In this document: piece by piece, positions 13,377-42,081 of the stretch
Position numbering within the stretch: the first letter of the stretch is position 1
Layout: every line of letters begins with the position of its first letter
Assembly (NCBI RefSeq): GCF_001293685.1
Contig: NZ_BCAG01000003.1
Span: 2,706,501-2,770,500, forward strand
From: Desulfatitalea tepidiphila
GTDB lineage: Bacteria; Desulfobacterota; Desulfobacteria; Desulfobacterales; Desulfosarcinaceae
Reading direction: 5' to 3'
Length of the DNA: 64,000 bases
Notes under the pieces: generated by a model
The model's input: the letters and a program-made list of their open reading frames with translations, nothing else
Told to the model about the DNA's origin: nothing
Database searches by the model: none
Translations under genes and position numbers: made by a program

Positions 13377-13407
13377 GGTCATCACCAACCCAAAGGAGGA
13401 AAACACC

Positions 13408-13737
13408 ATGAGAGGAACTATGAAGACAAAATCGTTGGTATTCGTCACCCTGCTGGTTGCCGCGTTGATGTTTGCATCGATTCAAGGATGCGCGACCTCA
13501 CCCGCCCAACCGATAGGTGATTTGGAACAAAAAATCGACCAGGCCGTGGCAGATTCCAGCAAGGCGCTGAGCGAAGCCCAGGCGGCCAAGAGCATGGTCG
13601 GCACCGACGCCCAACGGGCCGAGGCAGCGGCCGCCAGAGCTGAAAGGGCTGCCGATCGGGCCGAAGCTGCCGCAGCCCTGGCCGAGGAGATGGCCCAGAA
13701 GGCGGAAGCGATTTTCATGCAAAAAATGAAAAAGTGA
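13408..13737 (+). CDS. Ala-rich outer-membrane lipoprotein, Lpp-like, with C-terminal lysines
   Basis: A 109-residue lipoprotein. Its signal peptide ends in a lipobox-like IQGC with the lipidated Cys at residue 28. The mature part is a continuous Ala/Glu-rich helix with heptad-like repeats (AEAAAARAERAADRAEAAAA) and ends in MKK. This resembles the alanine-zipper of Braun lipoprotein, whose terminal lysine is linked to peptidoglycan by L,D-transpeptidases. The next gene is an L,D-transpeptidase whose GTG start overlaps this stop codon by four bases, which strongly suggests a functional pair. A near-perfect AAGGAGG precedes the ATG. Covalent attachment is inferred, not seen. Confidence 0.8.
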   Translation: MRGTMKTKSLVFVTLLVAALMFASIQGCATSPAQPIGDLEQKIDQAVADSSKALSEAQAAKSMVGTDAQRAEAAAARAERAADRAEAAAALAEEMAQKAEAIFMQKMKK

Positions 13738-14693
13738 AACACTGCCTCGACCGGATAACCTGGCGCCGGGGTGTTCTGGTCATCCTCTGCTGTTTTTGGG
13801 CGGTCCACTGGGGTTATGCCCCGGTGTTCGGCAACTCTACCCAAATGCAGCAGCGGAGTACCTACACCCTGGCACCGGGCAACGCGCTTATCGGCCACCC
13901 GTGGGAGCATGCGATCCAAAAAGGTGAAACCCTGCTGGATGTCGCCCGACTCTATGACCTGGGCTTCAACGAGATCGAACTGCTTCACCCCGACTGGGAC
14001 CCATGGTTGCCGACCGTCGGCGCCCAGGTCATGATTCCCTCCTTCTGGGTCCTGCCCCACGCAGGCCCTGCGGAGATCGTGATCAACGTGGCTGAACTGC
14101 GTCTCTACCGCTTCTCCAAGGATCGCCGGCGGGTGACGACCTTTCCCATCGGCATCGGCGAAAAGGATGCGGTCACCCCCATCGGGAACTTCACCATCAG
14201 CGACAAAAAAGAGAATCCTTCCTGGTCCGTGCCCCCCTCTTTACGGCACAAATATGACGTTCGTTGGTTTCCTCCCGGCCCGGACAATCCCCTGGGCGAC
14301 TTCTGGATGGGACTCAACGGCACCCGCTATGGCATCCACGGCACCGATGTGCCCTGGTCGATCGGCCGGTTGGTGACGCATGGATGTATCCGTCTCTATC
14401 CCGAAGATATTACCGTACTGTTCGACCAGGTGGCGGTCGGCACCCAGGTCAACCTCATCTACCAACCCGTCAAGATCGGACCGCTGAACGATCGCATCTT
14501 CGTCGAAGTTCACCCGGACATCTACGGGCGCATCGGCGACCTGGTGAGCTTCGGGTTCGCCCTGCTGCACGAACGCGGCCTGGTTTACCGCGTCGATGCC
14601 AAAAAGATGTATCGGGCACTGAAACAGCAAAACGGTCTCCCGGCCGACGTCACACGGGATCCCCCCTTGCAGGCGGCCGAAGAAGGCGGTTGA
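13734..14693 (+). CDS. L,D-transpeptidase (YkuD/ErfK family) with a LysM-like N-terminal domain
   Basis: A 319-residue exported enzyme expected to form 3-3 peptidoglycan cross-links or attach lipoproteins to meso-DAP. An N-terminal signal/anchor (about residues 12-32) precedes a LysM-like segment (HAIQKGETLLDVARLYDLG). The YkuD catalytic domain carries IHGTDVP and THGCIRL, with the catalytic Cys at residue 218 and the conserved His in HGC. The GTG start overlaps the lipoprotein stop (GTGA), implying translational coupling. The neighbouring lipoprotein ends in lysines, so an ErfK/YbiS-like lipoprotein-anchoring role is the simplest reading. Confidence 0.9.
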   Translation: MKHCLDRITWRRGVLVILCCFWAVHWGYAPVFGNSTQMQQRSTYTLAPGNALIGHPWEHAIQKGETLLDVARLYDLGFNEIELLHPDWDPWLPTVGAQVMIPSFWVLPHAGPAEIVINVAELRLYRFSKDRRRVTTFPIGIGEKDAVTPIGNFTISDKKENPSWSVPPSLRHKYDVRWFPPGPDNPLGDFWMGLNGTRYGIHGTDVPWSIGRLVTHGCIRLYPEDITVLFDQVAVGTQVNLIYQPVKIGPLNDRIFVEVHPDIYGRIGDLVSFGFALLHERGLVYRVDAKKMYRALKQQNGLPADVTRDPPLQAAEEGG

Positions 14694-26374: not shown

Positions 26375-26429
26375 CTTGGGCCACCTTTGCTGAGGGGGTG
26401 TGATGCGGTCGGCACGCCTCCGCGATTCC

Positions 26430-26942
26430 CTATGCCATCACTTCTGAAAACTGTTGGTATGCGACTTGTTTGAGCATCTCCCTTACGGTTTTCAGATCAA
26501 AGGGTTTGGACAGAAAACCATCCACGGTGGTGGAAGCGCCGATACGCGCTGCCAGCTCATCTGTGCAATGTCCCGTCATCAGGATGACCTTGATACCGAA
26601 ACAGTGCCTTTTGGCGGCCTCAGCCAATTCATAGCCATCCATACCCGGCATTTCGAAATCGGTGAGCAGAATATCGTAATGGGCGGCTTTCAGCAGACAT
26701 AAAGCCCCTATCCCGTCCTCCGCCGTTGCGGTCTGATATCCCAAATGGTCAAGCAATTCTGCGGTGAGAGACAAAACACAAGCATTGTCATCCACGATAA
26801 GAACCCGTTTGGGACCGGGTTCCACTCCCGAAATACGATCCCTGGCCGCTGACAATGCGCCGTGCCCCAGCGCTTCGCCGGGCACCGCTCCTAAACAGGT
26901 CTGCCGGGTTTGAAAGCTCCTCCCGAAACTATTGATTGCCAT
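26430..26942 (-). CDS. single-domain response regulator (CheY-like receiver with N-terminal extension)
   Basis: A 170-residue protein with a disordered N-terminal extension of about 45 residues and one receiver domain: acidic pair Asp51-Asp52 (VLIVDDN), phosphoacceptor Asp95 (LLTDFEMPG), Thr in LMTGH and Lys146 (LSKPF). There is no output domain, so it should act in a phosphorelay or by protein contact. The ATG at 26942 has AAAGGAG; a longer frame to 26996 is less likely. It opens the signalling island. Two NarL-like inverted heptamer pairs lie about 150-200 bases upstream. Confidence 0.85.
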   Translation of the reverse strand: MAINSFGRSFQTRQTCLGAVPGEALGHGALSAARDRISGVEPGPKRVLIVDDNACVLSLTAELLDHLGYQTATAEDGIGALCLLKAAHYDILLTDFEMPGMDGYELAEAAKRHCFGIKVILMTGHCTDELAARIGASTTVDGFLSKPFDLKTVREMLKQVAYQQFSEVMA

Positions 26943-27093
26943 GTCGCCGCTCCTTTCCCCCTTTGTATCCGGCTGGATGGCGGGGGCGAACACCAAGCCG
27001 ATGAAAGCGCACCCTATTCAACCCTCAGTTTTCTTATAAGTCAGGGACGGGCAAGGGACAATCGGCATAACTGCCCAATCTGAAATCTAACAT

Positions 27094-27111
27094 ATGGGTA
27101 CTTTTACCTAT
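27094..27111. promoter_or_regulatory. NarL-like inverted heptamer pair, site 1
   Basis: ATGGGTA-CTTT-TACCTAT. Each half fits the NarL/NarP heptamer TACYYMT (or its complement AKRRGTA), arranged back-to-back with a 4-base spacer instead of the classical 7-2-7. It lies in the divergent region between the receiver gene at 26430 and the small plus-strand gene at 27251. Confidence 0.55.
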
Positions 27112-27120
27112 TGCCCATCA

Positions 27121-27138
27121 ATAAGTAAAAATACTCAT
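27121..27138. promoter_or_regulatory. NarL-like inverted heptamer pair, site 2
   Basis: ATAAGTA-AAAA-TACTCAT has the same architecture as the site nine bases earlier, with both heptamers matching the NarL consensus. The two tandem palindromes together look like an operator for a LuxR/NarL-type regulator. Confidence 0.55.
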
Positions 27139-27250
27139 CTTTTTTGATGTGAAATGGAAATTAGTGCGAATTCCACGCGTCGCGTCTTTGGATTAGAAGA
27201 CTGACATGCCTTGAATGTGTCTAACTTGAACTTGGCATTGAGGGGGATGA

Positions 27251-27460
27251 ATGCAGGAAACGGAACGGTCAAACGGTATCCAGCAACTTGTGGAAAGATG
27301 GCGCACCGACTTCAAACGTCCCGAAAATACGAAATTCTACAATGAAATCGACTATAAAAAGGCCGAAAGAAAATACATCAAATGGTGCCTCGACGGGCGT
27401 GTGGAGAATTCCACCGATGGAAAGAAGCGCTCATCCATGTCCAAGGGGGGCCGTGCATGA
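27251..27460 (+). CDS. small hypothetical protein
   Basis: A 69-residue hydrophilic, basic protein (Trp- and Lys-rich: ERWRTDFKRPENTKFYNEID, then YKKAERKYIKWCLDGRV). AGGGGG lies just upstream of the ATG. It is preceded by two tandem NarL-like palindromes, and it is the only plus-strand gene between 23.6 and 36.4 kb, converging on the large hybrid kinase. The family is not recognised. The composition looks protein-like and the promoter region supports expression, but the call remains tentative. Confidence 0.5.
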   Translation: MQETERSNGIQQLVERWRTDFKRPENTKFYNEIDYKKAERKYIKWCLDGRVENSTDGKKRSSMSKGGRA

Positions 27461-27472
27461 ATACCGCTCGCT

Positions 27473-30430
27473 TCAACGAACCATTGGAGACGGTTCCATT
27501 TGGTTTTGATCCGAGCAGGCCGATCGGATGCTTTTGATCAGCTCTTCCGGGGAGACCTCCTTGGACAAGCAATCCCGGGCGCCGGCTTTTAACATCGCAT
27601 TTTTTATATTCGGATCCTGATGCATGGTGAGGCCGATAATGCATATAGCGGGAAATGACCGGCTGATTTCCATGGTCGCGTCGATGCCGTTCATCACCGG
27701 CATGCTGAAATCCATCAACACCACATCGGGTTTCAATTCGGCCGCCAATCGAAGCGCTTGCCGACCGTCGGCAGCCACACCCACGATATCGAAAAAATTT
27801 TGTTCTCCAAGTAATTTCGCCAAGCCATCGCGCATCAGATCGTGATCGTCGGCGAGAAGGACCCTTATGACACTTGATGTCTGGGAAGGCGGAAGTGGAA
27901 CAGGATGTCCCGCGCTTGCTGCCGGCAGGATTGGGCCGTCAACGGGCAGGGAGTTCGCATGGGATGCGCTGGGAACATCTCTGGGAACCCTCAATGTCAC
28001 GCGGAATCCACGGCCGGCCTCGCTCTCGACCTGCATGTAACCACCCAAAAATCTCACCCGCTCCTCGATGTCGAACAAGCCGAAGGATGTATTCTTCTCC
28101 CTCTTTTCACTCAACGCGCGCTCATCGCAACCCCGACCCTGATCCTTAACGGCGATCACCACCTGTGAACCATCTCCCTGCACTTCGACGGAGGCCGCTT
28201 TTTCGCCCGAGTGCTTGACGACGTTGAACAACAACTCCCGAATCGAGCGAATCAGCAGCGAGGAGAGCACCGAAGAGTGGATACAGGGGTCGGAGAGAAC
28301 ATCTATAGCCACATCCAGATCGTACATCTCTTTCATCTGCCGACGGAGATATTCCAGGCCGGTGAGAAAATCGTGTTGTGAATTCAAAGGCCTCAACTCA
28401 CGGGCCAGATTTCGGCAGCGATCGATGCCATCGCCGATCAGGCGAGTCATGGAGACCAGATTATGGGTAATCTCGCCCCCCTTCGCCAGCATGCTGAGTT
28501 TGAGCTTCAAATAGGCGAGCATCTGCTGGAAGTCGTCGTGGAGGACGCCGGCCAGGCGCTGGCGCTCGCTATCTTCCGCCTTGGACAGTTCCATGGCCAG
28601 TTGCTGGATGTACACGGCCCGCTGTTCGGCAAGCTTCGTGCGTTCGACGAGGGCTTTGTTGAGGTCGTTGAGCGTCTCCTGGTCTTGTTTGCTTTTGGTA
28701 ATGTCACTGACCAGTGCCATTATCTGGGCCGGGCCACCGGCGGGGTCCGGCAGCAGGGAGACAAACTTGTGGACCCAGATCGGATGGCCATCTTTGTGAA
28801 CATATCGATTTTCGACCTCGAAAAATGGGCGCGTTCCCTCCCTCAGACGTTCAATTTCCAACAGATTGGATTCCCGATCGTCCGGATGGAGGATATCGGA
28901 GACCGCAACACGCCGCAACTCCTTCTCCGTGTAGCCAAGCAGATGGCAGAAGGCCTGATTACACCGGATAAAACGCTCCTTTAAGTCGACCAACGCAATG
29001 CCGGTGGGTGCATTCTCGAATGCCTTGCGGAAACGCTCCTCGTCTCTGAGACGCTCTTCCTCAATTTGCTGACGCTCAGATTCGGCCCGTTTTCTCAGCA
29101 AGGTTTCCCAGATGGTCGGCGCCAATGATTCGAGCATCTCCTGTTCCATCGAACCATATCCGCCCTCGCGATTGGCCAGGGCGATCATGCCCACCAAACG
29201 ACCCTGGCGAAAAAAAGGCATGCTTAAAAATGAGTTGATCGTTGGATGACCGGCCGGAAACGGCGCATGGTTAACCCGGCCTGCAACGTCATTGATAAAA
29301 AACGCTTTACCCTCCTTTATCGTCGATCCATAGATAGACCGTTTCTGGAAATCCAGGGGAAGCCTGCCGTGGCCCTCTTTGTCGATCATTCGGCAGGCTT
29401 CACGTCCGGTTCGGCTGATCGCGATGTCGTGGAAGAGCCCGTCCGCGCCGACCTCTCCGATGAAGCCGATTCCACTTCCAGTGGATTCCTGGGCCGCGGC
29501 GATACAGACCTCACCGAGGGCCGCCTCGGTCGCCCCGCTTAGCGCCTGCTCGAAAATCCGATTGATTCCCTCGATCAGTTTGTTCTTATGGTACCTTTTC
29601 AACTCCGCCTGTTTGCGTTCGGTGATATCGATGGCATAGGTGAGACAGACGTCGCGGTCTATGGGAATCCACCACTTGTCCCAGAAGCGACCCTGAATGG
29701 CGATCTCCGGTGTCTCGATCGCCTCGCCTTTTTGGAACGCGTCTTTTACCCTGCAAAAGTGGCATTCACGCGCACTTTCGTCATTGACGTCACCATTGCC
29801 TCCCAATTTGAAGCGTCGCCAGCAATGGGTTCCCACCCGGGCGCCCATGCGCTGGGCAACCTGGTTGGCCGCCAGGACCATTCGATCCCGACGGATCATC
29901 ATGGCCGGATAAGGCAGGCTATCGAGCAGCAACTCGTTGAGCCTGGCGACTTTACGTAGATTCACCTTCAGTCGCCGCTCCCGGGCCGCCTGACTGATCA
30001 CGGCCGGCAGCAAGAGAAAAAAATCGGCGCTCTTGACGAGATAATCCTGAGCCCCGAGCTTCATGGCCTGCACCGCGATGCGCTCGTCACCCTGCCCGGT
30101 GATCATGATGACCGGGACATCGCTCCCCATCTCTTTGAGGCTGGCCAGAAATTCGATGCCGGTCATGCCCGGCATCAAAAAGTCGACCAGGATAATGTCG
30201 GGGGCGATGCTGTCCAGAGCGTTTATGCATTCGGCGGCATCGGATGCATGGCTCACGACGGTATCCGGCAGCTCTCTGCAGATCGCGCGTTTCATCAACT
30301 CATAATGAGCGTCTTCATCCTCGACGATCAACACCCTGATGGGACCTGAATCCAGCGTTGCCGGCGTCAACCCATCGGCGCTCCCGCCGGGTCCTGCGTG
30401 ACCCGAAGAGAGGATCGGTTGCGCATTCAT
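27473..30430 (-). CDS. hybrid sensor histidine kinase: REC-PAS-GAF-PAS-HisKA_3-HATPase-REC
   Basis: A 985-residue soluble kinase. The N-terminal receiver (about 30-150) has phosphoacceptor Asp83. A PAS-like region with a Cys pair (ECHFC) follows, then a GAF domain (about 290-470) and a PAS domain (about 500-620). The dimerisation box RLAGVLHDDFQQ is of the NarX/DegS (HisKA_3) class, and the ATPase domain has VKDQGRGCDE and a glycine-rich lid. The C-terminal receiver (about 855-975) has LLADDHD and LMDFSMPV but no HTH. AGGTGGGAGG precedes the ATG at 30430. NarX-type kinases usually phosphorylate NarL/LuxR-type regulators, and one is encoded at 36427. Confidence 0.9.
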   Translation of the reverse strand: MNAQPILSSGHAGPGGSADGLTPATLDSGPIRVLIVEDEDAHYELMKRAICRELPDTVVSHASDAAECINALDSIAPDIILVDFLMPGMTGIEFLASLKEMGSDVPVIMITGQGDERIAVQAMKLGAQDYLVKSADFFLLLPAVISQAARERRLKVNLRKVARLNELLLDSLPYPAMMIRRDRMVLAANQVAQRMGARVGTHCWRRFKLGGNGDVNDESARECHFCRVKDAFQKGEAIETPEIAIQGRFWDKWWIPIDRDVCLTYAIDITERKQAELKRYHKNKLIEGINRIFEQALSGATEAALGEVCIAAAQESTGSGIGFIGEVGADGLFHDIAISRTGREACRMIDKEGHGRLPLDFQKRSIYGSTIKEGKAFFINDVAGRVNHAPFPAGHPTINSFLSMPFFRQGRLVGMIALANREGGYGSMEQEMLESLAPTIWETLLRKRAESERQQIEEERLRDEERFRKAFENAPTGIALVDLKERFIRCNQAFCHLLGYTEKELRRVAVSDILHPDDRESNLLEIERLREGTRPFFEVENRYVHKDGHPIWVHKFVSLLPDPAGGPAQIMALVSDITKSKQDQETLNDLNKALVERTKLAEQRAVYIQQLAMELSKAEDSERQRLAGVLHDDFQQMLAYLKLKLSMLAKGGEITHNLVSMTRLIGDGIDRCRNLARELRPLNSQHDFLTGLEYLRRQMKEMYDLDVAIDVLSDPCIHSSVLSSLLIRSIRELLFNVVKHSGEKAASVEVQGDGSQVVIAVKDQGRGCDERALSEKREKNTSFGLFDIEERVRFLGGYMQVESEAGRGFRVTLRVPRDVPSASHANSLPVDGPILPAASAGHPVPLPPSQTSSVIRVLLADDHDLMRDGLAKLLGEQNFFDIVGVAADGRQALRLAAELKPDVVLMDFSMPVMNGIDATMEISRSFPAICIIGLTMHQDPNIKNAMLKAGARDCLSKEVSPEELIKSIRSACSDQNQMEPSPMVR

Positions 30431-30489
30431 GGCCTCCCACCTCCTTGTCCGAAAAGACACCCCCTTAGGTCCGCTCCAAAATATGCCTG

Positions 30490-30939
30490 TCAAGCATCGA
30501 TCGCGGGTGATTCATTGAGAATCATCCAGTAAAAATCGATCTGACGGATCTTCTCCTCAAACTCCTTGAACCCCACCGGTTTGGTGAGATAGCTGTTGGC
30601 GTATTGACCGTATGCGCGGGCCATATCCTCCTCCCGCTCCGAGGTGGTCAACATAATCACCGGGATCTGCCGGAGACTGGGGTGGGCTTTGATCTGGGTC
30701 AACACCTCGACACCGTCGATGCCGGGTAGCTTGATATCCAGCAGCACCAACCCCGGGGTAGGATATTTCTCTTTGTCGGCATACTTGCCCCGATTGAGAA
30801 GATAATCAAGGGCCTGTTCGCCATCACCCACGATGTCGACCCGGTTGGCATTTCCTGATTTGCGAATGGCACGGCAGGTGAGTTGGGCGTGGGCCTCTTC
30901 ATCTTCGACGATCAAAATGCTAGCCGGTTGACAGCTCAT
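30490..30939 (-). CDS. Rcp1-like single-domain response regulator
   Basis: A 149-residue receiver protein of the type paired with bacteriophytochrome-like kinases: ILIVEDEEAHAQLTCRA, phosphoacceptor Asp68 (LVLLDIKLPGIDG), Thr-Thr in VIMLTTSERE and SYLTKPVGF with the conserved Lys. There is no output domain. Its ATG overlaps the TGA of the upstream kinase gene (ATGA), so the two are translationally coupled and form a cognate pair. AAAGGAG is present upstream. The hybrid kinase gene follows after 59 bases, probably in the same transcript. Confidence 0.9.
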   Translation of the reverse strand: MSCQPASILIVEDEEAHAQLTCRAIRKSGNANRVDIVGDGEQALDYLLNRGKYADKEKYPTPGLVLLDIKLPGIDGVEVLTQIKAHPSLRQIPVIMLTTSEREEDMARAYGQYANSYLTKPVGFKEFEEKIRQIDFYWMILNESPAIDA

Positions 30940-32645
30940 TCGGTCTCCTTTTTCTCAAATGTAAAATAAAATGTAGTTCCCTTGCCCAACTCGGAAGTCA
31001 GCCAGATTCTACCTCCATGATGCTCGATAATGCGCTTGACAATGGCCAGGCCGATGCCGGTGCCTTCACCGGCCTGCTTTGCGGCTGGCAACCGCTCGAA
31101 TATCTGAAATATTTTGTCATAGTATCTCTGGTCGATGCCGATACCGTTGTCGCGCACCCAAAACACGTTTCGCCCATTTTGTTCCGTGCACCTGATGTCG
31201 ATGCGCGGTTCGGGGTTGTCCCTGCCGAGATACTTTATTGCGTTCGACAGAAGGTTATATATCACTTGTTCGACTCGTTTTCGATCCCCATGAACAGCGG
31301 GAAGATCCTGCTGGACGTTGACGATGACGCCGCGCGCCTCGATCTGAGTTTGCAAGGTGGCAATGGCTTCGTTAACGGCCAGCGACATGGAAAATGTCGT
31401 CTTGGGCGACTCCAACCGCCCGATACGGGAATAGTTGAGCAATTCACTGATGAGCTGCTCCATTTTACGTGCCGCATTGCTCATGTGGCTCAGGTACTGA
31501 TCGCCGACTTCTGAAATCGATGCGCTGAAGTCTTCGCGCAATGCGCCAATGAATCCTTCGATGGTCACAATGGGCGTCTTCAGGTCGTGGGAAACCGTAT
31601 ACACGAAAGACTCCAACTCCGCATTTTTGGATGTGAGCTCCTCCAGCAGCGCTTGGAGTTTTTGTTCGTTTTCCCGCAACGCAGCCTGGGCGTCTTTGCG
31701 CTCGTTCACCTCGACGATGGCCTGGTCACGGGATCTCTTGTACATTTCGATCCGCTGGAGCAGAAGATGCAGGAGCAGGGAAAGCGCGGCGGCCAGCGTC
31801 AAGCCGAAAGCCAGGAAGCCGACATTCATATCTAACGCATTCGAACGCGCCGCCTGGTTCAGGGTCAGCTGGACGGTCCATGTTTTTGAACCGAAACGCA
31901 CCGCTCGAACCGCCTGTGGGACTGCAGATGGTTCCTGCGTTTGCATATCCGTTTGAATCTGGCCGGGGCTGCCGTGCTGGAAAACAATCCGGGCTTGCTC
32001 GGATACGCTCACATTAAAATCATTCAAAACCTCTCTGGTCAGGCTGAGCATCATAATCTTGTGGACTGAAAAGAAACCGCCCAAATAACCTTGCAAGTCG
32101 TTTTTCATCATCAAAGCGCGCACAGCAGAAAAACCGGCGAGGTCTTGCTGCAGGGGAGCACAAGGTGTCATGACCAGATCGGTTTCGATTCCATCATATG
32201 CACCAACCGTCCCGTTTCGCGAAGAGAGGTGCCGCGTCACCGAACCCACATCTATCCCGGCCGTATCGACATCCTCGGGGAACACCCATCGGATCGTTCC
32301 CGATGGATCGATCCAGAAGATGTTTGCATAACCCGGATAATTCTCGTGCAGGGCAGCGGCGAATCCTTGAAAACGATGATGGCTGAAATCAGGCGGATCT
32401 CTTTCCACCCATCTGTCGGCCATCAACTCGAGGGAGGCGAGGCGTGCATTCATTAGGCCTTCGACACGAATGCGCACCTGTTCGGCGGAGGTTTCGATAT
32501 ACCGCAATATCAATTCGCGGTCATGGATGTTTTGATGCTGCCACAGCAATAGGGCGATCGTGGCCAGAACAGCAAACGCGGACAGTGGAATCCAGATTTT
32601 GTTGCGGATGGCGGATTGCATGGCGAAATTGGGCATAGAGGTCAT
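30936..32645 (-). CDS. membrane sensor histidine kinase with CHASE-like periplasmic domain
   Basis: A 569-residue kinase. Helix 1 (about residues 18-36) and helix 2 (about 275-297) flank a periplasmic CHASE-like sensor (NYPGYANIFWIDPSGTIRWVFPE region). A coiled coil then leads to HisKA with the phosphoacceptor in VSHDLKTPI, and to a HATPase domain with YNLLSNAIKYL, WVRDNGIGID and GEGTGIGLAIVK. This is the class of kinase that partners with Rcp1-like receivers, as the next gene encodes. The start is uncertain among three nearby ATGs. A strong hairpin-T-run lies only 34 bases upstream of the start. Confidence 0.9.
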   Translation of the reverse strand: MTSMPNFAMQSAIRNKIWIPLSAFAVLATIALLLWQHQNIHDRELILRYIETSAEQVRIRVEGLMNARLASLELMADRWVERDPPDFSHHRFQGFAAALHENYPGYANIFWIDPSGTIRWVFPEDVDTAGIDVGSVTRHLSSRNGTVGAYDGIETDLVMTPCAPLQQDLAGFSAVRALMMKNDLQGYLGGFFSVHKIMMLSLTREVLNDFNVSVSEQARIVFQHGSPGQIQTDMQTQEPSAVPQAVRAVRFGSKTWTVQLTLNQAARSNALDMNVGFLAFGLTLAAALSLLLHLLLQRIEMYKRSRDQAIVEVNERKDAQAALRENEQKLQALLEELTSKNAELESFVYTVSHDLKTPIVTIEGFIGALREDFSASISEVGDQYLSHMSNAARKMEQLISELLNYSRIGRLESPKTTFSMSLAVNEAIATLQTQIEARGVIVNVQQDLPAVHGDRKRVEQVIYNLLSNAIKYLGRDNPEPRIDIRCTEQNGRNVFWVRDNGIGIDQRYYDKIFQIFERLPAAKQAGEGTGIGLAIVKRIIEHHGGRIWLTSELGKGTTFYFTFEKKETE

Positions 32646-32678
32646 AGTCAGGTATCATCATTTTTAGACGCTGCTGAC

Positions 32679-32710
32679 AAAAAAATCAACATGCACGATT
32701 GTGCATGTTG
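32679..32710 (-). terminator. intrinsic terminator or attenuator directly upstream of the CHASE kinase gene
   Basis: On the minus strand a perfect 10-bp stem CAACATGCAC/GTGCATGTTG with a 4-base loop is followed, after one base, by a run of seven T residues (plus-strand A run 32679-32685). It ends 34 bases before the kinase start codon. It either ends a short transcript from the 32.7-33.0 kb gap or attenuates expression of the kinase operon. Confidence 0.75.
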
Positions 32711-33030
32711 GAGGTGCCGTCAATGCCAAATGGGATTGACACAAGCCTATTGTCACGAGGACAGCCCGGCCCCGTCATATTCCCGCCTTGACCTGCGTTG
32801 GACTGGATATCTTCGAAAAAGCACCCGCACGATGCACATAGCACATTCCGCTTGAAATCGATTCAAGGCGTTGGATCAGACATCGTCAAATCGAACTCGA
32901 AATTCTGAAATAAAACCTGGATTATTCACAACCATGCAGTTTATAAATCCATAAAAACACCCAAAATTTATTTTTCATATGGGTAAAAATACCTAATCGG
33001 CAAGTGGTGGCCGTAATCCGTAATGCGGCG
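32711..33030. other. 320-base gene-free stretch between the disrupted kinase and the CHASE kinase
   Basis: Only very short frames (about 18-23 codons) are open here. The left end is the terminator hairpin at 32679-32710 and the right end carries NarL-like site 3 at 32979-32996. Read on the minus strand the interval has the layout of a short non-coding transcript, but no good -10/-35 pair was found, so no RNA gene is called. Confidence 0.4.
32979..32996. promoter_or_regulatory. NarL-like inverted heptamer pair, site 3
   Basis: ATGGGTA-AAAA-TACCTAA: the left heptamer and spacer length are identical to site 1 and only the last base of the right heptamer departs from consensus. The preceding CAT is also shared with site 1. 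It lies upstream of the CHASE kinase operon on the minus strand. Confidence 0.5.
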
Positions 33031-33879
33031 TCATGCGCTTCCAAGGGGAAGGTCGACAAGGATTCGGGTACCTTTGCCGGAACGACTTTCAATGGTCAAC
33101 CGGGCGCCAATCATGCGTGCGCGGACCTGCATGACGGCCAGCCCCATGCCCTTCAGACTGCCCGGCGACCTATCCGGACCGGGATGACCGAATCCCTTGC
33201 CGTTGTCCTCGATCAAGGTTCTTAAGCGGTCCTTGGTTTCAAAGGCCCTGATGGTCACTTGGGTTGCGTCGGCGTGCCTGTTCGCATTGTCCAATGCCTC
33301 CTGGACGATACGAAACAAAGCGATCTGAGTTTCCCGTTTGGAAACCTTTATCAGGGGCTCCAGGTCGGTTTCGATCCGCACGGATGAAAACTCAGAATGT
33401 TCCCGCACCATCTGCCGCAATCCCGCCACGAGACCCAAAACTTCGAGAGAGGAAGGGATCAACTCACGCATTATTCTTCGGACGTCATCGATAATGTGAT
33501 CTGCAAAGGCCTCCAGCTTTAGACACAGCTGCTGCAAGTCACCCTGGTCGATATTCAGGTTCTTTTTAATCTCGCCCAGCCGCAGTTTGAGGACGTTGAG
33601 GTCCTGCCCGATCTGATCGTGCAACGCCAAGGCTACCCGGTGACGCTCCTCTTCCTGAGCGTTTAGAAGATGGACGACCAGTCTACCCTGTTCTTCCAAG
33701 GTCTTCTCCAGGCACTGGTCCAGGAACTGCAATGTGGAAGATATATGCACCTGCTCGCTCATATCCAGAATCACCGCCCGGTATTCATATCCGGCCTGAT
33801 GGGTTTGGGGCAGATATTGCAGCTGGACCTGAACCGGAAAGCTACGCCCGCCGTTCCGTTCCATTTTGAAATCGGCCAT
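33031..33879 (-). CDS. NarX-type (HisKA_3) histidine kinase, C-terminal part of a frame-disrupted gene
   Basis: A 282-residue frame beginning inside what looks like the end of a PAS domain (NGGRSFPVQVQLQYLPQ). It then has the HisKA_3 box VALALHDQIGQDL with His87 and a HATPase domain (LFRIVQEALDNANRHA, IEDNGKGFG, GLAVMQVRAR). The kinase core is intact. Its ATG has no convincing Shine-Dalgarno and lies within a second frame (33771-34067) that encodes the matching N-terminal helix, so the gene appears split by a frameshift with loss of most of the PAS domain. It could still be expressed as a soluble kinase core. Confidence 0.7.
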   Translation of the reverse strand: MADFKMERNGGRSFPVQVQLQYLPQTHQAGYEYRAVILDMSEQVHISSTLQFLDQCLEKTLEEQGRLVVHLLNAQEEERHRVALALHDQIGQDLNVLKLRLGEIKKNLNIDQGDLQQLCLKLEAFADHIIDDVRRIMRELIPSSLEVLGLVAGLRQMVREHSEFSSVRIETDLEPLIKVSKRETQIALFRIVQEALDNANRHADATQVTIRAFETKDRLRTLIEDNGKGFGHPGPDRSPGSLKGMGLAVMQVRARMIGARLTIESRSGKGTRILVDLPLGSA

Positions 33880-34067
33880 AAGCGGCTTTCGGCCAATTCA
33901 GAATTCTTCTTCTCCAGTTCAATTTGAAGGAGATGAATTTCACTCATGAGTGAGTCAATATCCTGCCTTAAGGATTCCTTCAAATGTTCGCCGATGTTGG
34001 CGGCTGCAAGCGCATCTGATTTTCGACGCAGCTCGGTCCAGCTATCTTTGTCAATGGGGTGGCTCAT
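33771..34067 (-). pseudogene. N-terminal part of the frame-disrupted NarX-type kinase
   Basis: The frame starting MSHPIDKDSWTELRR at 34067 (weak GAGCAGGG upstream) encodes a Leu/Glu-rich coiled coil (HLLQIELEKKNSELAESR) typical of the segment preceding PAS domains in cytoplasmic LuxR-pathway kinases. After this point the reading frame runs into unrelated sequence, while the PAS-end and kinase sequence continues in another frame from 33879. A frameshift near 33880 is the simplest explanation. Confidence 0.55.
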
Positions 34068-34242
34068 GAATACCCTGCTCCGTGCGGATCGGTTCGAGAT
34101 AAAAGTTTCGCCACAACAACTACCCACTGTTTCATGCCGACATTGCGCACATGTTGATGATCCAATGTTACGGCGCCGTCCGGCAACGACTTTCTGAATG
34201 GCCCTCATTTTTATCTAATACCCTTTTTTGAAAACGATTTTT

Positions 34243-34260
34243 ATACATAGAACTACCCAT
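34243..34260. promoter_or_regulatory. degenerate NarL-like heptamer pair, site 4
   Basis: ATACATA-GAAC-TACCCAT: the right heptamer is a perfect TACYYMT; the left departs at two positions, with the same 4-base spacing as the other three sites. It lies about 180 bases upstream of the disrupted kinase gene. Confidence 0.35.
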
Positions 34261-34636
34261 TTGCGGCCGTCCCGAGTGGATGGTTTTACCGATTGGTACG
34301 GCCCTTTGAAAAAACTTCTTCAATCTTTTCTTTGACTTGGACTATCCACTGTTTCGCACTGTCTTAAGGCCGGGTGAATGGATACCCTGGTTCGATATCC
34401 GCGAAAGCGAACAGGAAGTTTTCTTGCAGGCCGAAAACCTGGGATGAGATGCCAGTCATCTGTCCGTCGAGAGATCCGGAAATCTACTCACCATCAAGGG
34501 AAGGATGGGAAGACCAGAGATAGGGCCCTGGAGCTGGCGCTGACCAAAAAGAGGGAATCCAAGGAGCAAAAAATAGAAATTGAGTCAATGTCATCATGTT
34601 GAAATAAATATTGACCGAAAACGCCTCGATCAATGG
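34261..34636. other. gene-poor stretch between the disrupted kinase and the AdoMet synthetase gene
   Basis: The only sizeable frame (34378-34602, plus) lacks a convincing Shine-Dalgarno and has a low-complexity basic composition; I do not call it. No strong terminator was found. Confidence 0.4.
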
Positions 34637-35875
34637 TCAACACACGCTGAACAGGCCTTGGGCCAGTTGGTCGCTGAAATTCGGAATGCCATGCAGGTGT
34701 TCCTCAACGATCTCGATCGCAGCGGCAGACATTTCCGGTGCCGAGGTATCCGGGCTTAAAGCCACCTGCACCGATGCCAGCATCGGTTGATCTATGGGTG
34801 ATCCGATGCGGCTGCACAGCCATACATAGACCTCCGCGAGACCGGAAATGCGCCGGTAAATATCTTCTGCTATGCGATGGGTCAGCATGCTGTAGATTTT
34901 GCCCACATGGCTGATGGGGTTTTTCCCTGCCGTAGCTTCATTGCCGCACGGCCGATTGAGTGCGATCAGACCATTTGCCCGGTTTCCGCGCCCGACCTGT
35001 CCGCCATCGGCCCCATCGGCCGAGGTCCCTAAAACCGTGAGATACATGCCGGCCGCTCCCCTGGCAGGGTCGTCCAATGTATTGATGGCAACGGATATAC
35101 GGTCCAAAGCCTGCATTTTTGGCGAAAGATATTTTTCCAGGCAAAACTGGATCTCCCGTTTGCGTTCGAAATAGAAGCGCTCGTTGGGAATATGGCGGTC
35201 CACAAACGCCATGGCCACGGTGAGCTCCAGTTTACGGCCGCGACGGCAGCCCATGATTTTGACATCTTCTCCGCTTTCGGGGAATTGATGCTTGAAGAGA
35301 GCTGAATTGAGGAAATTCTCGGCGTCCAACACCATCTGTTCGGTCTCCGTAAGCGGGGCATAGCCGACGGCCGCCGATGTGTCATTGGCGCCGATGGTTT
35401 GCCGTTCGAAAATATCACTCAACTGCATTGATCCATGGCGAAGTTCGTTTTGAATGATCAGATGGCGATCGAACTCCACGAAGCGAAGGTTTTTCCGGCA
35501 CCAATGGCTGACCGTGTCGAACACGATCGCATCCACATCGATGGGCGTGCCCCGATAAAGACTTGTGGCGCGGTCGCCGATGACCAACCGCATGGGTTCT
35601 ACGATACGTCCCCCGCCGATCCGGGGTTCTGATAAGCCGGCCACAAGCAAGCCTTTGTCGATGTTGTGATGCATTACGCGGCCGAAATGATGCTGATAGG
35701 CTCGGCACAGGGCCACGGAAATTTTCTCGTGAATGGCGTCGCAAATCGTGTCCGGGTGGCCGAGTCCTTTGCGTTCGACAATTTCGGTTTCCTGCTGGGC
35801 CACAGGGCTACGGGAAACCGTTTCAACCGTTACGTCAGTGGTTGGAGATACCTTGGAACGCGACCGGGAATTCAT
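34637..35875 (-). CDS. S-adenosylmethionine synthetase, archaeal type (PF01941)
   Basis: A 412-residue enzyme expected to make AdoMet from methionine and ATP. It belongs to the archaeal-type MAT family, not the usual bacterial MetK: it has RKGLGHPDTICDAI near the N-terminus, HHNIDKGLLVAG, and GTSADGADGGQVGRGNRANG followed by AGKNPISHVGKIY. AAGGAGATTA before the ATG at 35875 fixes the start; a longer frame adds 13 residues with no support. It is a lone gene inside a signalling island, separated by more than 500 bases from the next gene on either side. Horizontal acquisition, or a specialised role beside a normal metK elsewhere, is likely. Confidence 0.88.
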   Translation of the reverse strand: MNSRSRSKVSPTTDVTVETVSRSPVAQQETEIVERKGLGHPDTICDAIHEKISVALCRAYQHHFGRVMHHNIDKGLLVAGLSEPRIGGGRIVEPMRLVIGDRATSLYRGTPIDVDAIVFDTVSHWCRKNLRFVEFDRHLIIQNELRHGSMQLSDIFERQTIGANDTSAAVGYAPLTETEQMVLDAENFLNSALFKHQFPESGEDVKIMGCRRGRKLELTVAMAFVDRHIPNERFYFERKREIQFCLEKYLSPKMQALDRISVAINTLDDPARGAAGMYLTVLGTSADGADGGQVGRGNRANGLIALNRPCGNEATAGKNPISHVGKIYSMLTHRIAEDIYRRISGLAEVYVWLCSRIGSPIDQPMLASVQVALSPDTSAPEMSAAAIEIVEEHLHGIPNFSDQLAQGLFSVC

Positions 35876-36426
35876 ACTTAATCTCCTTGGAATGCTCTCT
35901 CGGTGGTGTGCCACAATTCTTGGACATCACAATTCGTGCCAAACTTTGATGTGCGGTCGCTATCATGCTGTCCATTTTAGTCGTATCCAAGGATACTTGG
36001 CTCGACCAGGCCCGGATTGATTCGATCACCGGCAAAAGAGTGTCAGCCTTTTTGCCAACTTGAAAAGAGAGCCTGATCCGTTCAGGCAAAAACCGGTCGT
36101 CCACTGAGAGAAAGCCGGTTAAGCAGAAGCGCTGCGGCTGGCAGAGTGCAAAAATGTTTTGACAGAAAGAGGATTGTATGAATTATAAAATCGAAATATT
36201 GATCGCAAGCCAAGTGGTCTCACCTAATCTTTATCCTAAAAGCATTTTGCTGCACACGAATGGGGCCCTTGCAGTGCGTTGCATGCCAGGCTTGGAAAAA
36301 CATATGGCCACACAGCGACATCCGGCTCATTGCGCCGGATGATACAGGGTAAAAAAAGACCGTCTTGAATGGCAACGAGATGGTGGGCCATCGGTTTCAC
36401 ATTCTTGCACAATGCGGACAAATGCG
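35876..36426. other. intergenic region between divergent AdoMet synthetase and NarL-type regulator genes
   Basis: No convincing gene. A GTG-started minus frame (35835-36104) overlaps the Shine-Dalgarno and start of the AdoMet synthetase gene and is not called. A perfect 8-bp inverted repeat, CATCCGGC/GCCGGATG (36319-36326 and 36334-36341), lies about 85 bases before the regulator start, without a T run; it could be an operator. Confidence 0.4.
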
Positions 36427-37083
36427 ATGAGCATGTACAAAATCATTCTTGCGGACGATCACGCCCTGATGCGAGAAGGTATCAGAAATTTAATCGACCA
36501 GGCAGATGATCTAAAGGTGATTGCCGAAACCGGCGATGGCACCGAGCTCCTCAACCTATTAAAGAGAACGACCCCCGACATGGTCATCCTTGACATTTCA
36601 ATGCCTGGCCTGAGGGGCATCGAAGCGGCGAGGGAAATCCATTGTCTCTATCCCAAGGTCGATATTCTGATCCTGAGCATGCATAAGCGGCAAGAATTCC
36701 TGTCGATGGCGCTTGAGGCGGGTGCCAGCGGCTATGTATTGAAAGAGGACACCGGCGAAGAGCTTCTGCATGCCATCGACCAGGTGCGCCACGGGCGGAC
36801 CTACCTATCCGCCAAACTCGCATCCTTGTACTCCAACGATATCATCAGCATCTGCAGGGGAAACCATAAGCAGCACGCAGATCCCTTGACCCACCGTGAG
36901 CGGGAAATACTCAAGCTGGTCGCCGAAGGGCACACCGATCGGCAAGTCAGTGAAATGCTTTTCATCAGCTTCCGAACCGTCCAAAGGCACCGCTTCAACA
37001 TCCGCGAAAAACTCAAATTGAAAAGTACTGCGGACTTGGTGAAATACGCTATCGCAAGGGGCTATGTCAGCAGCGAGCATTGA
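36427..37083 (+). CDS. NarL/LuxR-family response regulator
   Basis: A 218-residue DNA-binding response regulator. The receiver has Asp10-Asp11 (ILADDHALMREGIRNL), phosphoacceptor Asp56 (MVILDISMPG), Ser in LILSMHK and Lys106 (YVLKED). The C-terminal LuxR-type HTH is at about residues 155-215 (LTHREREILKLVAEGHTDRQ, then the recognition helix region SFRTVQRHRFNIREKLKLKS). It has no kinase partner next to it, but two NarX-type kinases are encoded nearby (27473 and 33031), and NarL-like palindromes recur in the island. It is the best candidate regulator of those sites. The start is uncertain among ATGs at 36412, 36427 and 36433. Confidence 0.9.
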   Translation: MSMYKIILADDHALMREGIRNLIDQADDLKVIAETGDGTELLNLLKRTTPDMVILDISMPGLRGIEAAREIHCLYPKVDILILSMHKRQEFLSMALEAGASGYVLKEDTGEELLHAIDQVRHGRTYLSAKLASLYSNDIISICRGNHKQHADPLTHREREILKLVAEGHTDRQVSEMLFISFRTVQRHRFNIREKLKLKSTADLVKYAIARGYVSSEH

Positions 37084-37574
37084 CATGCCCGGCGTGATGC
37101 TTTGCACCAGCCTGACAAACAGTAGAGGCCGCTCGCACCTGCCATAAAATTTTTATAAAACAATTAATTCAGCATGTTAGAAAATTCCGGGCAACTCGGA
37201 AGCTCGATCCGTCCGGAAATCAGCTCGACGGCTGATTGGATGTCCAGATAGGCATTTCTGCCTATTTCCAAGGGCCACAATTGGGCCAAAGTGCTGATTG
37301 AAACCCCCTCCTCCGGACGTTAGAACCATTTCGGGACCTTGAAAGGATAACCGAATCGATGGGTGGCTCTTCAGGCCGTTCGGGTTCAAGGTGTTAAAGG
37401 CTGCGATCACTAATTTAGGCCCGCCTTGGGATACAAGCGCCACAAATTTGAAGCGGCCAGGTGGATATGCGCCCGCATGGGCCAAAGCGGGTCGGATGGG
37501 TTGCAACGCGGCCGGCTCGAGATTTCCAGGCAACGAGAACATTTGCCCAATCGATTTTATCAGGAGATTACATC
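37084..37574. other. intergenic region upstream of the PilZ gene
   Basis: Overlapping frames on both strands (for example 37177-37542 minus and 37391-37843 plus) have no Shine-Dalgarno and no recognisable features; they look like chance frames. No terminator or clear promoter was found. Confidence 0.35.
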
Positions 37575-37895
37575 ATGGAAAAAAGAATGTTACCCCGCAC
37601 CCACACGCAGGTCCCGATAGCATGTTGCTGTTTCACGATTTCGGAAGGCGCCAACTTCATCCAGGGCACCATGTTGAACTGCTCGCCCGGCGGCACCTAT
37701 ATCGAGTTGGACAGGCCTTACAAAGAGGGTACCATTCTGATGATAAAGACGGACAACCGGCGCGACAGCCCGGCGCATGGCAACGCGATAGAAGGGCTTC
37801 GAACGATCTCATTGGCCGAGGTCAAGTGGGCCAAGGCAATTGAAAAAGAAAAAGCCTCACAATTTGGACTGGGGCTGAAGTATTACGACTTATAG
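37575..37895 (+). CDS. PilZ-domain c-di-GMP binding protein
   Basis: A 106-residue single PilZ domain. The c-di-GMP-binding signature is present: RxxxR as Arg4-Arg8 (KRMLPRTH) and NxSxxG as Asn35-Ser37-Gly40 (NCSPGG), at the expected spacing. AGGAGATT precedes the ATG, and longer frames upstream are rejected. The protein has no other domain, so it should act as an effector on a partner protein. It follows the NarL-type regulator gene by 490 bases and faces the DASS transporter gene. Confidence 0.88.
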   Translation: MEKRMLPRTHTQVPIACCCFTISEGANFIQGTMLNCSPGGTYIELDRPYKEGTILMIKTDNRRDSPAHGNAIEGLRTISLAEVKWAKAIEKEKASQFGLGLKYYDL

Positions 37896-37928
37896 TCTTC
37901 GCCACCCATATCTTCTTACTACAAGCTG

Positions 37929-39392
37929 CTATAATTTAACTGGCATGCCCATCAGCGGCCACAGGAAGTACACCGCGAAGGCCAGTACCCCCATCAAGAT
38001 GATGCTCGCCAGCAGACCGTAGATAAAAAACTCCTGGGTCGTAAATTGTTTTGAATTGTAGGCGATGGCATTGGGAGCAGCACCGATCAACAGCATGAAC
38101 GGCATGCCGGCCGTGACGAGCGCGGCGTAAAATATCACCTCCGGCGCAACGCCCAGATAGGGCGCCACCACCAGCGCCACCGGAAGCGAAATGGCGATGG
38201 CCGCCACATTCATGATGAAATTGGTCATCACCATGACAAAGAAGCCGATGCTCATCACAAACACGAACCAGTTAGCTTTCTTGAAAATGGTCAGCCAATT
38301 GACGGCCAGCCACTTGGCCGCCTCGGTCTCCCACAAGCACAGCCCCATGCTCATGGCACCCGAAAACAGCAGGATGATGTTCCAGGGGATCTCTTCCAGA
38401 TCGCTGATATCCAGGATCTTGATCACATAGAAGAGAAGGGTGGTGACGATCAGGATCGCCGATTTGTTCAACTTGGCCAGGGCCGGGAAAAAGGATTGCA
38501 GGGCCAGCATCCCCACGCAGGCCAGAATGATCAGCACGGCCGTCCTCTCATGGCCGCTGGTCGGCCCCATCTCCTTGAGCAGTTCCCTGGCCTTTTGCTT
38601 CAGGCCCGGTATGGTCGCCCGCTCCGGCTTGCACACCACCATCATGAGCCCCCAGATCAACAGCATCATCAGCCAGCCGATGGGGAAAAAGTAGTAACTG
38701 TATTCGAAGAAGCTGATGCTCCTGCCGGCAATATCCCTGAAAAACCCGATGGCCACGGCCCCTCGGGCCGCACCGAGCAGACTGATGATGCTGCCGGCGC
38801 CGGCCACGTAGGCCATGCCGATGAACAACCCCTTGCCAAACCGCGTCTTGGCCTCGTATCCCTCGTATAGCGTATGGATCGCCACGAGCAACGGGAAAAT
38901 GGTGGCCGCCACGGCGGTGTGGGCCATGATATGAGTGAGCAGCACCGTAACGGCAAAGCTGCCCAGATAGATCATCGAAGTCCTCTCGCCGACGACGGAA
39001 AGCATCAGGTAGGCCATGCGCCGCGTCAACCCCGTCTTGGTGCAAACCTGGCCGATGACGATCGATCCGAAGATGAAAAGAACCGATGGATCCATGAAGT
39101 TGCCGAACACCTCTTTGGCCGGACGGATGAAAAACAGGGTCTGGAACACGCCGATGGCCAGACTGGTAATGCCGATGGGAAGCACTTCGAAGATCCACCA
39201 TGTGGCGGCCAAAAGAAACACGCCCAATGCCCCCTTGCCTTCCCTGGACAGGACAAAGTGCTTGCCGACGGGGTCCACGGCATCGGGCCAGGGGGAAGAA
39301 TAGTAGGTTCCCAGGAAGAGCCCCACACCAAGAAGTAAAAAAAACCATCGCTTCCAATCGGTTTTATCTGACGCACGCGACGCTGACATCAT
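37929..39392 (-). CDS. DASS/SLC13-family anion:sodium symporter
   Basis: A 487-residue inner-membrane transporter with about 11-12 hydrophobic segments, of the divalent anion:sodium symporter family (di/tricarboxylates, sulfate). Visible features are WWIFEVLPIGITSLAIGV near the N-terminus, the LTHIMAHTAVAATIFPL segment corresponding to the first SNT-like sodium/anion motif, and TNFIMNVAAIAISLP plus GAAPNAIAYNS for the second. In sulfate reducers some DASS members are sulfate importers, but C4-dicarboxylate uptake is equally possible. GGGGGAGG is located upstream of the tandem ATGs. It is a single-gene unit. Confidence 0.88.
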   Translation of the reverse strand: MMSASRASDKTDWKRWFFLLLGVGLFLGTYYSSPWPDAVDPVGKHFVLSREGKGALGVFLLAATWWIFEVLPIGITSLAIGVFQTLFFIRPAKEVFGNFMDPSVLFIFGSIVIGQVCTKTGLTRRMAYLMLSVVGERTSMIYLGSFAVTVLLTHIMAHTAVAATIFPLLVAIHTLYEGYEAKTRFGKGLFIGMAYVAGAGSIISLLGAARGAVAIGFFRDIAGRSISFFEYSYYFFPIGWLMMLLIWGLMMVVCKPERATIPGLKQKARELLKEMGPTSGHERTAVLIILACVGMLALQSFFPALAKLNKSAILIVTTLLFYVIKILDISDLEEIPWNIILLFSGAMSMGLCLWETEAAKWLAVNWLTIFKKANWFVFVMSIGFFVMVMTNFIMNVAAIAISLPVALVVAPYLGVAPEVIFYAALVTAGMPFMLLIGAAPNAIAYNSKQFTTQEFFIYGLLASIILMGVLAFAVYFLWPLMGMPVKL

Positions 39393-41470: not shown

Positions 41471-42081
41471 AAGAGGCCTCTGCCCTGTATAGCCCCCAAT
41501 GGACGTTCAGCTGAAAGCAGTTCAACAAATCGGCGCCGTTCCCGCCAGGGGAAACGGCGCCGAAACACACCCTATCCAGACCACACCTGCTCCTTAGCCT
41601 CTTCAACGGCGGTCACCATAAGGCTTTCTCCGCTCGAATCCTCGGAAAGCATCCCTGCCGCCTGGACGAATTTCCCAACTATTCCAGACAGATCCTTGCT
41701 CTTGAGCAGGGGGCTGTCGCTGCTATCGGCCGGACAGCAAGCCTTTCAGCGGGCCGATTCAAGCGTATTTAAGCTCTCTCCGATCCGCTTGATCGCATCT
41801 GTTACAAGTACCTATGGTGATCTCATATGAATTCGAGTAGCAGGAGAAAATGAAGCGCCAGAAATGTTTTCAAGCCGCAGACAATACCGGAAAACAAGGT
41901 CCGATAATTGCGTCTTTATAAGGGATTCAAATAGCGAACGGCAATTCGCATTTGTATCCATTCTGGAGGGACAATATACGCACTTGTCTGTAGGTCAGCA
42001 CGGGGCCGCGGCGCGAGGCCGGTCCACGAAACCACGCCGGCCAACCCAGAAGCCTGGCCGAGGCGAGTTGCCGAATAAAAA
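41471..42081. other. 610-base gene-free region upstream of mlaE, with a GC-rich hairpin
   Basis: No supported gene. CGGCGCCGTT (41531-41540) pairs perfectly with AACGGCGCCG (41553-41562) around a 12-base loop; on the minus strand it is followed by ATTTGTT, a weak T tract. It lies 60 bases before the mlaE start and could be a leader structure or the terminator of the upstream PurF-like gene. Confidence 0.45.

Follow-up and report, generated by a model that had tools for sequence, protein, structure and literature searches.

In the NarL family of response regulators (RRs), NarL and NarP of Escherichia coli read operators in a 7-2-7 arrangement, ComA of Bacillus subtilis reads the box TTGCGG-N4-CCGCAA, and the Dev box of DosR/DevR in Mycobacterium tuberculosis is TTSGGGACTWWAGTCCCSAA, with DosR targets that include Hsp20, universal stress proteins (Usp), and a storage-lipid synthase. 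Further hallmarks of the DosR/DevR dormancy regulon are a GAF-HisKA_3 sensor kinase and induction by hypoxia, NO, or CO. Here, we analyzed a window of 64,000 nucleotides from Desulfatitalea tepidiphila (contig NZ_BCAG01000003.1, positions 2,706,501 to 2,770,500), in which palindromes of the type ATRRGTA-N4-TACYYAT accompany a two-component signaling island encoding a NarL-family RR (36427-37083), and compared it with these systems and with related genomes (G, contigs C, loci L). The heptamer of NarL/NarP is given as TACYYMT (PMC4886647), and DevR is described as binding cooperatively to two neighboring sites, a primary one and one of low affinity, of which the proximal overlaps the -35 hexamer, and as recruiting RNA polymerase (PMC3029386). 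Judged from sequence comparison, the palindromes are probably the distal halves of sigma70-type composite promoters activated by the RR.

An initial annotation had described four copies of the palindrome, and all four were found where it placed them. ATGGGTA-CTTT-TACCTAT at 27094 and ATAAGTA-AAAA-TACTCAT at 27121 match ATRRGTA-N4-TACYYAT exactly, the palindrome at 32979 has one mismatch and that at 34243 has two; a further distal site, ATAGGCATTTCTGCCTAT, lies at 37248. As a count, the recurrence claimed for the motif is at chance level: the window holds 10 matches at ≤3 mismatches vs. 6.07 (SD 2.58) in shuffles, with 10 reached by 11 of 100 shuffles, and the whole genome holds five sites at ≤1 mismatch vs. 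seven for a backward control pattern. Motif counting alone was not significant in either case and was rejected as evidence. As placement, the recurrence stood, and the genome scan that the annotation had suggested did reveal clustering inside the island, with three of the five genomic sites, including the only two exact ones, inside 6 kb of 5.6 Mb. The signal of the palindrome is its position, its count alone not exceeding chance.

Reading onward from each palindrome, a degenerate copy of the site, TTGGGCA-N4-TGCGAAT, was seen, and the palindrome appears to be the distal half of a two-part promoter element: distal RTRGGYA-N4-TRCCYAY, 14-15 bp, the proximal copy merging into a TTGTTT-like -35 hexamer, 17-18 bp, and TATAAR. 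Hence, the inverted arms and N4 spacer of the initial annotation are real, and its single-palindrome operator holds as a distal half, while the degenerate copy abutting the -35 had been overlooked. The RR and three of the promoters were as follows (R1 and R2, promoter models defined below).

36427-37083, + strand: NarL-family RR with receiver and GerE helix-turn-helix domains (Pfam Response_reg, GerE), proposed regulator
27094-27111, - strand: distal palindrome, receiver-gene promoter (R1 match 27030-27111, E 7.7e-17, training sequence)
27061-27078, - strand: proximal degenerate site TTGGGCAGTTATGCCGAT of the receiver-gene promoter (exact match to TTGGGYANNNNTGCSRATTG in the genome scan)
27033-27061, - strand: -35 TTGTCC (27061-27056), 17 bp, and -10 TATAAG (27038-27033) of the receiver-gene promoter
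26430-26996, - strand: stand-alone receiver-domain protein (Pfam Response_reg), predicted target, likely start near 26943
27121-27138, + strand: distal palindrome, divergent promoter of a 69-amino-acid protein (R2 E 1.7e-7, training sequence)
27154-27199, + strand: proximal site (27154-27171), -35 TTCCAC (27171-27176), and -10 TAGAAG (27194-27199) of that promoter; same layout in G007 at L037:13873
27251-27460, + strand: 69-amino-acid protein (81% in G007), predicted target
37248-37265, + strand: distal palindrome, PilZ-like gene promoter (R1 E 9.2e-12, training sequence)
37281-37326, + strand: proximal site (37281-37298), -35 TTGAAA (37298-37303), and -10 TAGAAC (37321-37326) of the PilZ-like gene promoter
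37575-37895, + strand: PilZ-like protein (31-39% to PilZ-like proteins of relatives), predicted target

Across 31 aligned promoters, the two sites are spaced by 32-33 bp in 30, the remaining row being scored as 30 with its first base cut off, and the -35/-10 spacer is 17-18 bp in 30 and 16 bp in one. The -35/-10 layout is sigma70-like, and the distal site combined with a proximal site overlapping the -35 reproduces the layout of DosR/DevR-type promoters. Assuming a transcription start at the customary distance from the -10, the distal palindrome ATRGGYA-N4-TRCCYAT would be centered near -76 and occupied by a phosphorylated RR dimer, and a second dimer would bind cooperatively to the proximal TTGGGCA-N4-TGCGAAT, 32-33 bp (about three helical turns) nearer the gene. 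The outer arm of the proximal site, which is centered near -44, would run into the -35, and RNA polymerase would be recruited to a TTGTTT-like and a TATAAR hexamer separated by 17-18 bp. A proximal site overlapping the -35 is compatible with repression too, the RR then blocking its own cluster, which we consider unlikely given that activator-dependent promoters usually combine a weak -35 with a proximal site near -44 and a distal one about three turns farther out. The activator-type two-site layout is exemplified by DevR (PMC3029386).

The RR itself matches Pfam Response_reg (91.9 bits) and GerE (59.7 bits), both over cut-off, the domain composition of the NarL/FixJ family, and it is the sole protein with a DNA-binding domain among the cluster proteins put through Pfam. 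Its orthologues are 85% identical in G007, of the same genus, and 62-68% in a second genus, g4. When GTDB contigs were searched with an alignment of the RR, the best relative among the matches listed was a Desulfobacula metagenome-assembled genome at 44%; these loci (53 of the 80 listed, picked mostly for long flanks) were used only as distant controls. We scanned 600 bp on either side of 12 orthologue genes (two partial) for ATRGGYA-N4-TRCCYAT. Downstream, the palindrome was present at ≤2 mismatches in 11 of the 12 and at ≤1 in nine, the best match beginning 23-54 bp beyond the RR match in nine; upstream, as a control, one of the 12 had it at ≤2 mismatches. About 240 shuffles of these flanks gave none at ≤1 mismatch and 2.1% at two. 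Downstream of seven family paralogues (38-41% identity), no palindrome was found at ≤2 mismatches, and a single one at ≤1 was found among the 53 distant RRs, of which one had no downstream sequence. Another 37 RR homologues (48-68%, mostly from other families of the order, two of them shared with the orthologue set) had 18 downstream and four upstream matches (≤2 mismatches, 400 bp; shuffles 1.2%). A survey of palindromes of any sequence in the 130 bp that follow each of 49 RR genes was taken as supportive, spacers 2 and 6 also being raised: perfect 7-bp arms numbered six vs. 0.55 in shuffles for spacer 4, four vs. 0.80 for spacer 2, and four vs. 0.40 for spacer 6.

In g4, the cluster runs HisKA_3 kinase, RR, site, stand-alone receiver protein, (STAS), PilZ, and glycogen-synthase-like gene, with variations. 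A receiver homologue follows the RR in eight of nine g4 loci with an RR at least 65% identical, where the site of G026 has three mismatches; another follows a site on a separate contig of G019, and none lies behind the second RR of G023 (63%). The window holds a rearranged version of this cluster, in which the 27094/27121 pair lies between the divergent receiver and 69-amino-acid genes, and the PilZ-like gene comes after the RR and site 37248.

Co-occurrence of promoter and regulator was assessed in 30 genomes of the family and 389 of the order, of which 13 and 43, respectively, were scored RR-positive (RR homologue at E ≤ 1e-60). The proximal pattern alone, at ≤1 mismatch, gave 48 matches in the family genomes vs. 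11 for its backward control, and 18 of the 48, each in an RR-positive genome, fall on composite promoters identified by other means. R1, a sequence-only model of 13 cis promoters run on the family genomes, placed promoters below E 1e-9 in 12 of the 13 RR-positive genomes, 11 of which hold training sequences while G028 does not, and gave nothing better than E 0.007 in the 17 RR-negative ones. Its hits outside training were in G019 (C126, 2e-14; C18, 4e-12), G028 (3e-11), G026 (C269, 3e-10; C128, 2e-8), G029 (8e-8), G023 (1e-5), and G017 (8e-5). Two further models were run on all 389 genomes, R2 being wider (31 promoters from 13 training genomes) and R3 built from nine promoters of a class with 24-bp spacing; their co-occurrence P values were computed without regard to shared ancestry. 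R2 (E ≤ 1e-3) hit 22 genomes, comprising 19 of 43 RR-positive and three of 346 RR-negative (Fisher P = 1e-17), and without its training genomes the contrast was six of 30 vs. three of 346 (P = 1.1e-5). R3 hit 43 genomes, 24 RR-positive and 19 RR-negative, which became 15 of 34 vs. 19 of 346 (P = 5e-9) without its own training genomes and eight of 23 vs. 19 of 346 (P = 7e-5) without both training sets. The association of promoter and RR is strong and, because RR-negative genomes are also hit by R2 and R3, not exclusive; part of the RR-negative hits of R3 may be RRs under the threshold, G380 belonging to the same genus as RR-positive G377. The shared operator proposed in the initial annotation, with the RR as its likely reader, is thus upheld by the palindrome conserved beside orthologues, by co-occurrence, and by the sole DNA-binding domain among the cluster proteins put through Pfam.

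Spacing followed the phylogeny of the regulator. Downstream of the 49 RR genes, 36 distal matches (≤2 mismatches) were found, 20 of them with a proximal element (≤3 mismatches) at an offset, between the permitted 19 and 79, of 24 bp (nine), 32 (nine), 33 (one), or 48 (one, a triple array in G236). On a midpoint-rooted tree of the 49 RR proteins, in which 30 rows have no spacing class, one branch (support 100/97) separates the ten RRs of 32-33-bp spacing from the nine of 24-bp spacing, with a single change of spacing in 100% of 200 bootstrap trees vs. a shuffled mean of 6.5-6.6 (0 of 500 as low). Altered-arm homologues in G139, G137, and G097, missed by the pattern, fall on the 32-bp side of the tree, and a conserved RATTG puts their proximal elements at 33, 32, and 32 bp, one of them with a second candidate place. 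These homologues (L216, L218, L229) combine a TVxNHRKNI/TIHNHRKNI-type recognition helix with ATAGCC-type distal arms, possibly a specificity switch tied to the helix, and in G352 and G334 an ATVKHHRAAI helix goes with ATGGTCA arms. The idea that spacing class is set by identity to the window RR was contradicted by the ATAGCC-type homologues, which are 51-57% identical and have 32-33 bp. Because the arms have changed in both elements of G082 (ATAGTTA) and G139 (ATAGCCA), the comparison suggests that the same protein binds distal and proximal elements.

These patterns bear on whether the RR is a mere neighbor, or itself a target, of an element read by another regulator or an alternative sigma factor. 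The 69-amino-acid and other hypothetical proteins could be DNA binders, hits occur in some genomes without the RR at the threshold, and G014 lacks a promoter despite having an RR. Nonetheless, the promoter tracks the RR over 389 genomes, distal arms vary with the recognition helix among RR subfamilies, the spacing class follows the RR tree, and the -35/-10 layout is sigma70-like. Moreover, an RR paralogue of G028 (51-52%) keeps the downstream site although the next genes differ (by eye, ferredoxin-type and aldehyde-ferredoxin-oxidoreductase (AOR)-like), and on this balance we judge a different reader improbable. An RNA hairpin or intrinsic terminator behind the RR gene, for which the short distance to the RR match in nine of 12 orthologues and a possible 7-bp stem with 4-base loop would speak, is highly improbable, as the palindrome also occurs where two genes diverge (27094, 27121) and ahead of genes elsewhere, its positions 6 and 13 change independently of each other, leaving a C-A mismatch in the G017 stem (ATAGGCAAAATTACCTAT), the sites do not overlap any of the 13 terminator-like matches of 26400-38000, and many sites have a second element at a fixed 32 or 24 bp.

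Several observations weigh against RR-activated composite promoters. In the family, 19 of the 48 proximal-pattern matches lie in RR-negative genomes, and G014, with an RR (49%, E 2.7e-66), has no R1 promoter better than E 0.58. Of the 43 RR-positive genomes, 24 lack an R2 promoter at E ≤ 1e-3 and three RR-negative ones have one, G022 and G024 show the cis promoter only (R2), and the R3 hits in 19 of 346 RR-negative genomes include strong ones (G380 6.9e-10, G223 1.3e-8, G061 1.8e-8). No recognizable proximal element accompanies 16 of the 36 distal sites behind RR genes, and several distal-only matches had to be discarded, namely those upstream of kinase-like genes in G017 and at C3:80366 of the D. 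tepidiphila genome, beside a PhaR-like gene and before a glycogen-synthase-like gene in G023, and in G018 and G014; because the proximal element is absent, they were judged probable chance. The shared change of arms has counter-cases, being partial or absent in the proximal elements of G137 and G097, and G205, G083, and G129 have similar helices and no clear site. A full promoter of the 32-bp class is present in G028, where the best RR, at 51% identity, has a different recognition helix. In the window, sites 32979 and 34243 fit the model poorly, the former having a plausible proximal element, no good -10, and an R1 match to its distal part only. Finally, in the three genomes with a lipoprotein operon described below, that operon is no more than 12-23 kb away from the RR.

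The remaining features of the window include one more distinct promoter and weaker candidates.

13204-13282, + strand: composite promoter with degenerate distal site (R1 with this promoter held out, match at 13213, E 1.3e-5), with proximal site 13236-13253, -35 TTGCAC (13253-13258), and -10 TATATA (13277-13282)
13405-13737, + strand: alanine-zipper lipoprotein (Pfam Alanine_zipper E 1.9e-4, 22.1 bits, cut-off 23.1), predicted target
13734-14693, + strand: L,D-transpeptidase (Pfam YkuD E 2e-26), presumably in the same operon as the lipoprotein
32979-32996, - strand: distal site before the histidine-kinase operon, proximal candidate 32964-32947; similar element in G007 at L037:19538
27473-32645, - strand: possible target operon of HisKA kinase, receiver protein, and GAF-PAS-HisKA_3 hybrid kinase (Pfam; upstream site weak)
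34243-34260, + strand: degenerate distal site with proximal candidate 34276-34293, doubtful (R1 4 bits, E 2.4)
41915-41993, - strand: candidate promoter with proximal site 41961-41944, TTGCCG, 18 bp, and TATAAA (good spacer and -10; R2 E 0.026)

The initial annotation had lacked sites 37248 and 27061-27078 and the element 13204-13282, and its site at 34243 is still doubtful. Its statement that the island has no adjacent targets beyond signaling proteins and a small protein is not supported: the PilZ-like gene and the lipoprotein/L,D-transpeptidase operon, 23 kb from the RR, carry the promoter, and relatives add storage and stress genes. The 13204-13282 promoter has an orthologous element in G007 (C10:7490, E 9.6e-4). 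All seven R2 hits of this genome at E ≤ 0.05 (five distinct places) lie inside the window, and R3 gave a single marginal partial hit outside it (C3:2532147, E 1.0e-3). The recognizable regulon members of this genome would occupy one 24-kb stretch, the kinase operon being less sure. Glycogen phosphorylase (10669-13161), a glycogen-synthase-like gene, and a phosphoenolpyruvate-synthase-like gene are also encoded in the window. The PilZ-like protein 37575-37895 has no Pfam match of its own, and two PilZ-like proteins behind promoters of relatives pass the Pfam PilZ cut-off. Pfam gave no match for the 69-amino-acid protein; homologues occur in 56 of 389 genomes including G000 (the window genome) and G007, the others being weak and present also in genomes without the RR, so that these weak homologues do not track the RR.

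The hybrid kinase 27473-30493 has Pfam GAF_2, PAS, and HisKA_3 domains, and the kinase 33031-33879 has HisKA_3 and ATPase domains only. In a relative (L042), the RR-adjacent kinase has PAS and HisKA_3, with GAF at 20.8 bits under the 22.4 cut-off. Unlike the RR-side kinase of g4 relatives, the HisKA_3 kinase at 33031-34208 is without a PAS or GAF match, and its apparent N-terminal open reading frame (33771-34208) is in another frame, such that the gene may be decaying. Downstream of site 34243, 34361-34540 resembles, by eye only, an Hsp20-like remnant with an in-frame stop, whose fragments gave no Pfam match. The interval between the kinase operon and the RR contains the truncated kinase and an S-adenosylmethionine synthase of the PF01941 family (34637-35914), and this stretch had no DNA match at the corresponding place in the close relative G007.

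Genes behind promoters outside the RR cluster were also inspected in relatives, and the recurrence of similar kinds of target there speaks for the proposed regulon. The lipoprotein/L,D-transpeptidase operon recurred in the window genome, G007, and G017, and G026 has a possible lipoprotein, from an antisense reading. Storage genes comprised class III polyhydroxyalkanoate (PHA) synthase phaE-phaC in G023 (Pfam) and G026 (by eye) and CBM48 glycogen-binding-type proteins in G019 (below cut-off), G070, and G028. In G028, the promoter precedes a run of genes with CBM48, receiver protein, Hsp20, PilZ, and Usp, and a Usp follows it in G023. These relatives thus have the Hsp20 and Usp targets that are a feature of the DosR/DevR regulon; in the window, no intact Hsp20 or Usp was found behind a promoter. 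G167 has the promoter, a small protein, and then a CMAS-type cyclopropane synthase, and G070 has CBS and desulfoferrodoxin proteins behind the promoter and UDP-glucose pyrophosphorylase behind the RR. A 122-amino-acid protein with SQSESTDDIP follows the promoter in G026 (L045:14811-15179) and G023 (L054:7908-8276), the G023 copy having no Pfam match. Because storage, envelope, and stress proteins occur together, the target set suggests a starvation or stress programme.

The genes under the 24-bp subfamily seem to be partly different. Its promoters in G028, G341, and G380 (L053, L391, L392) precede ferredoxin-type and AOR-like genes, and in G201 a receiver-STAS-Usp run (both by eye). Three near-identical 24-bp-class elements were observed within 45 kb of G039 (L048, L049, L050), two before Mrr-type-restriction-endonuclease-like genes (by eye). 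A small protein with conserved (T/M)VGWICRRE was also seen near RR clusters or promoters (L039:13582-13851, L160:5068-5352, L214:7149-7451).

A limited literature search, covering titles and abstract openings, returned no match for the operator or for such a system in this group. If true, our reading would assign a regulator, operator, and set of targets to stress and carbon storage in these bacteria, turning an odd motif into a testable gene network, and the 24/32-bp switch on one branch of the RR tree, together with the helix variants, would constitute a natural experiment on dimer cooperation and the evolution of specificity. We lean toward a DosR-like stress and storage regulon outside Actinobacteria, in which two dimers of a NarL-family RR sit 24 or 32-33 bp (about 2.3 or 3 turns) apart, the spacing having changed once and the arms with helix subfamilies, a stepwise re-engineering of dimer cooperation.

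Compared with the known systems, NarL/NarP shares the protein family, and TACYYMT resembles the TRCCYAT arm, so the "NarL-like" label of the initial annotation fits the protein and, loosely, the heptamer. It does not fit the site, whose arms face the other way relative to 7-2-7, with an N4 spacer and a fixed two-site promoter, and no nitrate-metabolism genes were noticed among the targets looked at. ComA is likewise a NarL-family RR reading an inverted repeat with a 4-bp spacer and differs in arm sequence, organism, and regulon. DosR/DevR (DevR PDB 3c3w) is again a NarL-family RR with similar two-site promoter logic, and Hsp20, Usp, and PHA synthase lie behind promoters in relatives here. In contrast, RTRGGYA-N4-TRCCYAY does not conform to the Dev box, the site spacing differs, and storage here is PHA- or glycogen-related; by PDB comparison, NarL (1a04) was the best match to the RR (4.7e-32) ahead of DevR (1.2e-27), indicating no special closeness to DevR. 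By analogy, the system would be DosR-like in its promoter logic and its Hsp20, Usp, and storage flavor, and not in its operator.

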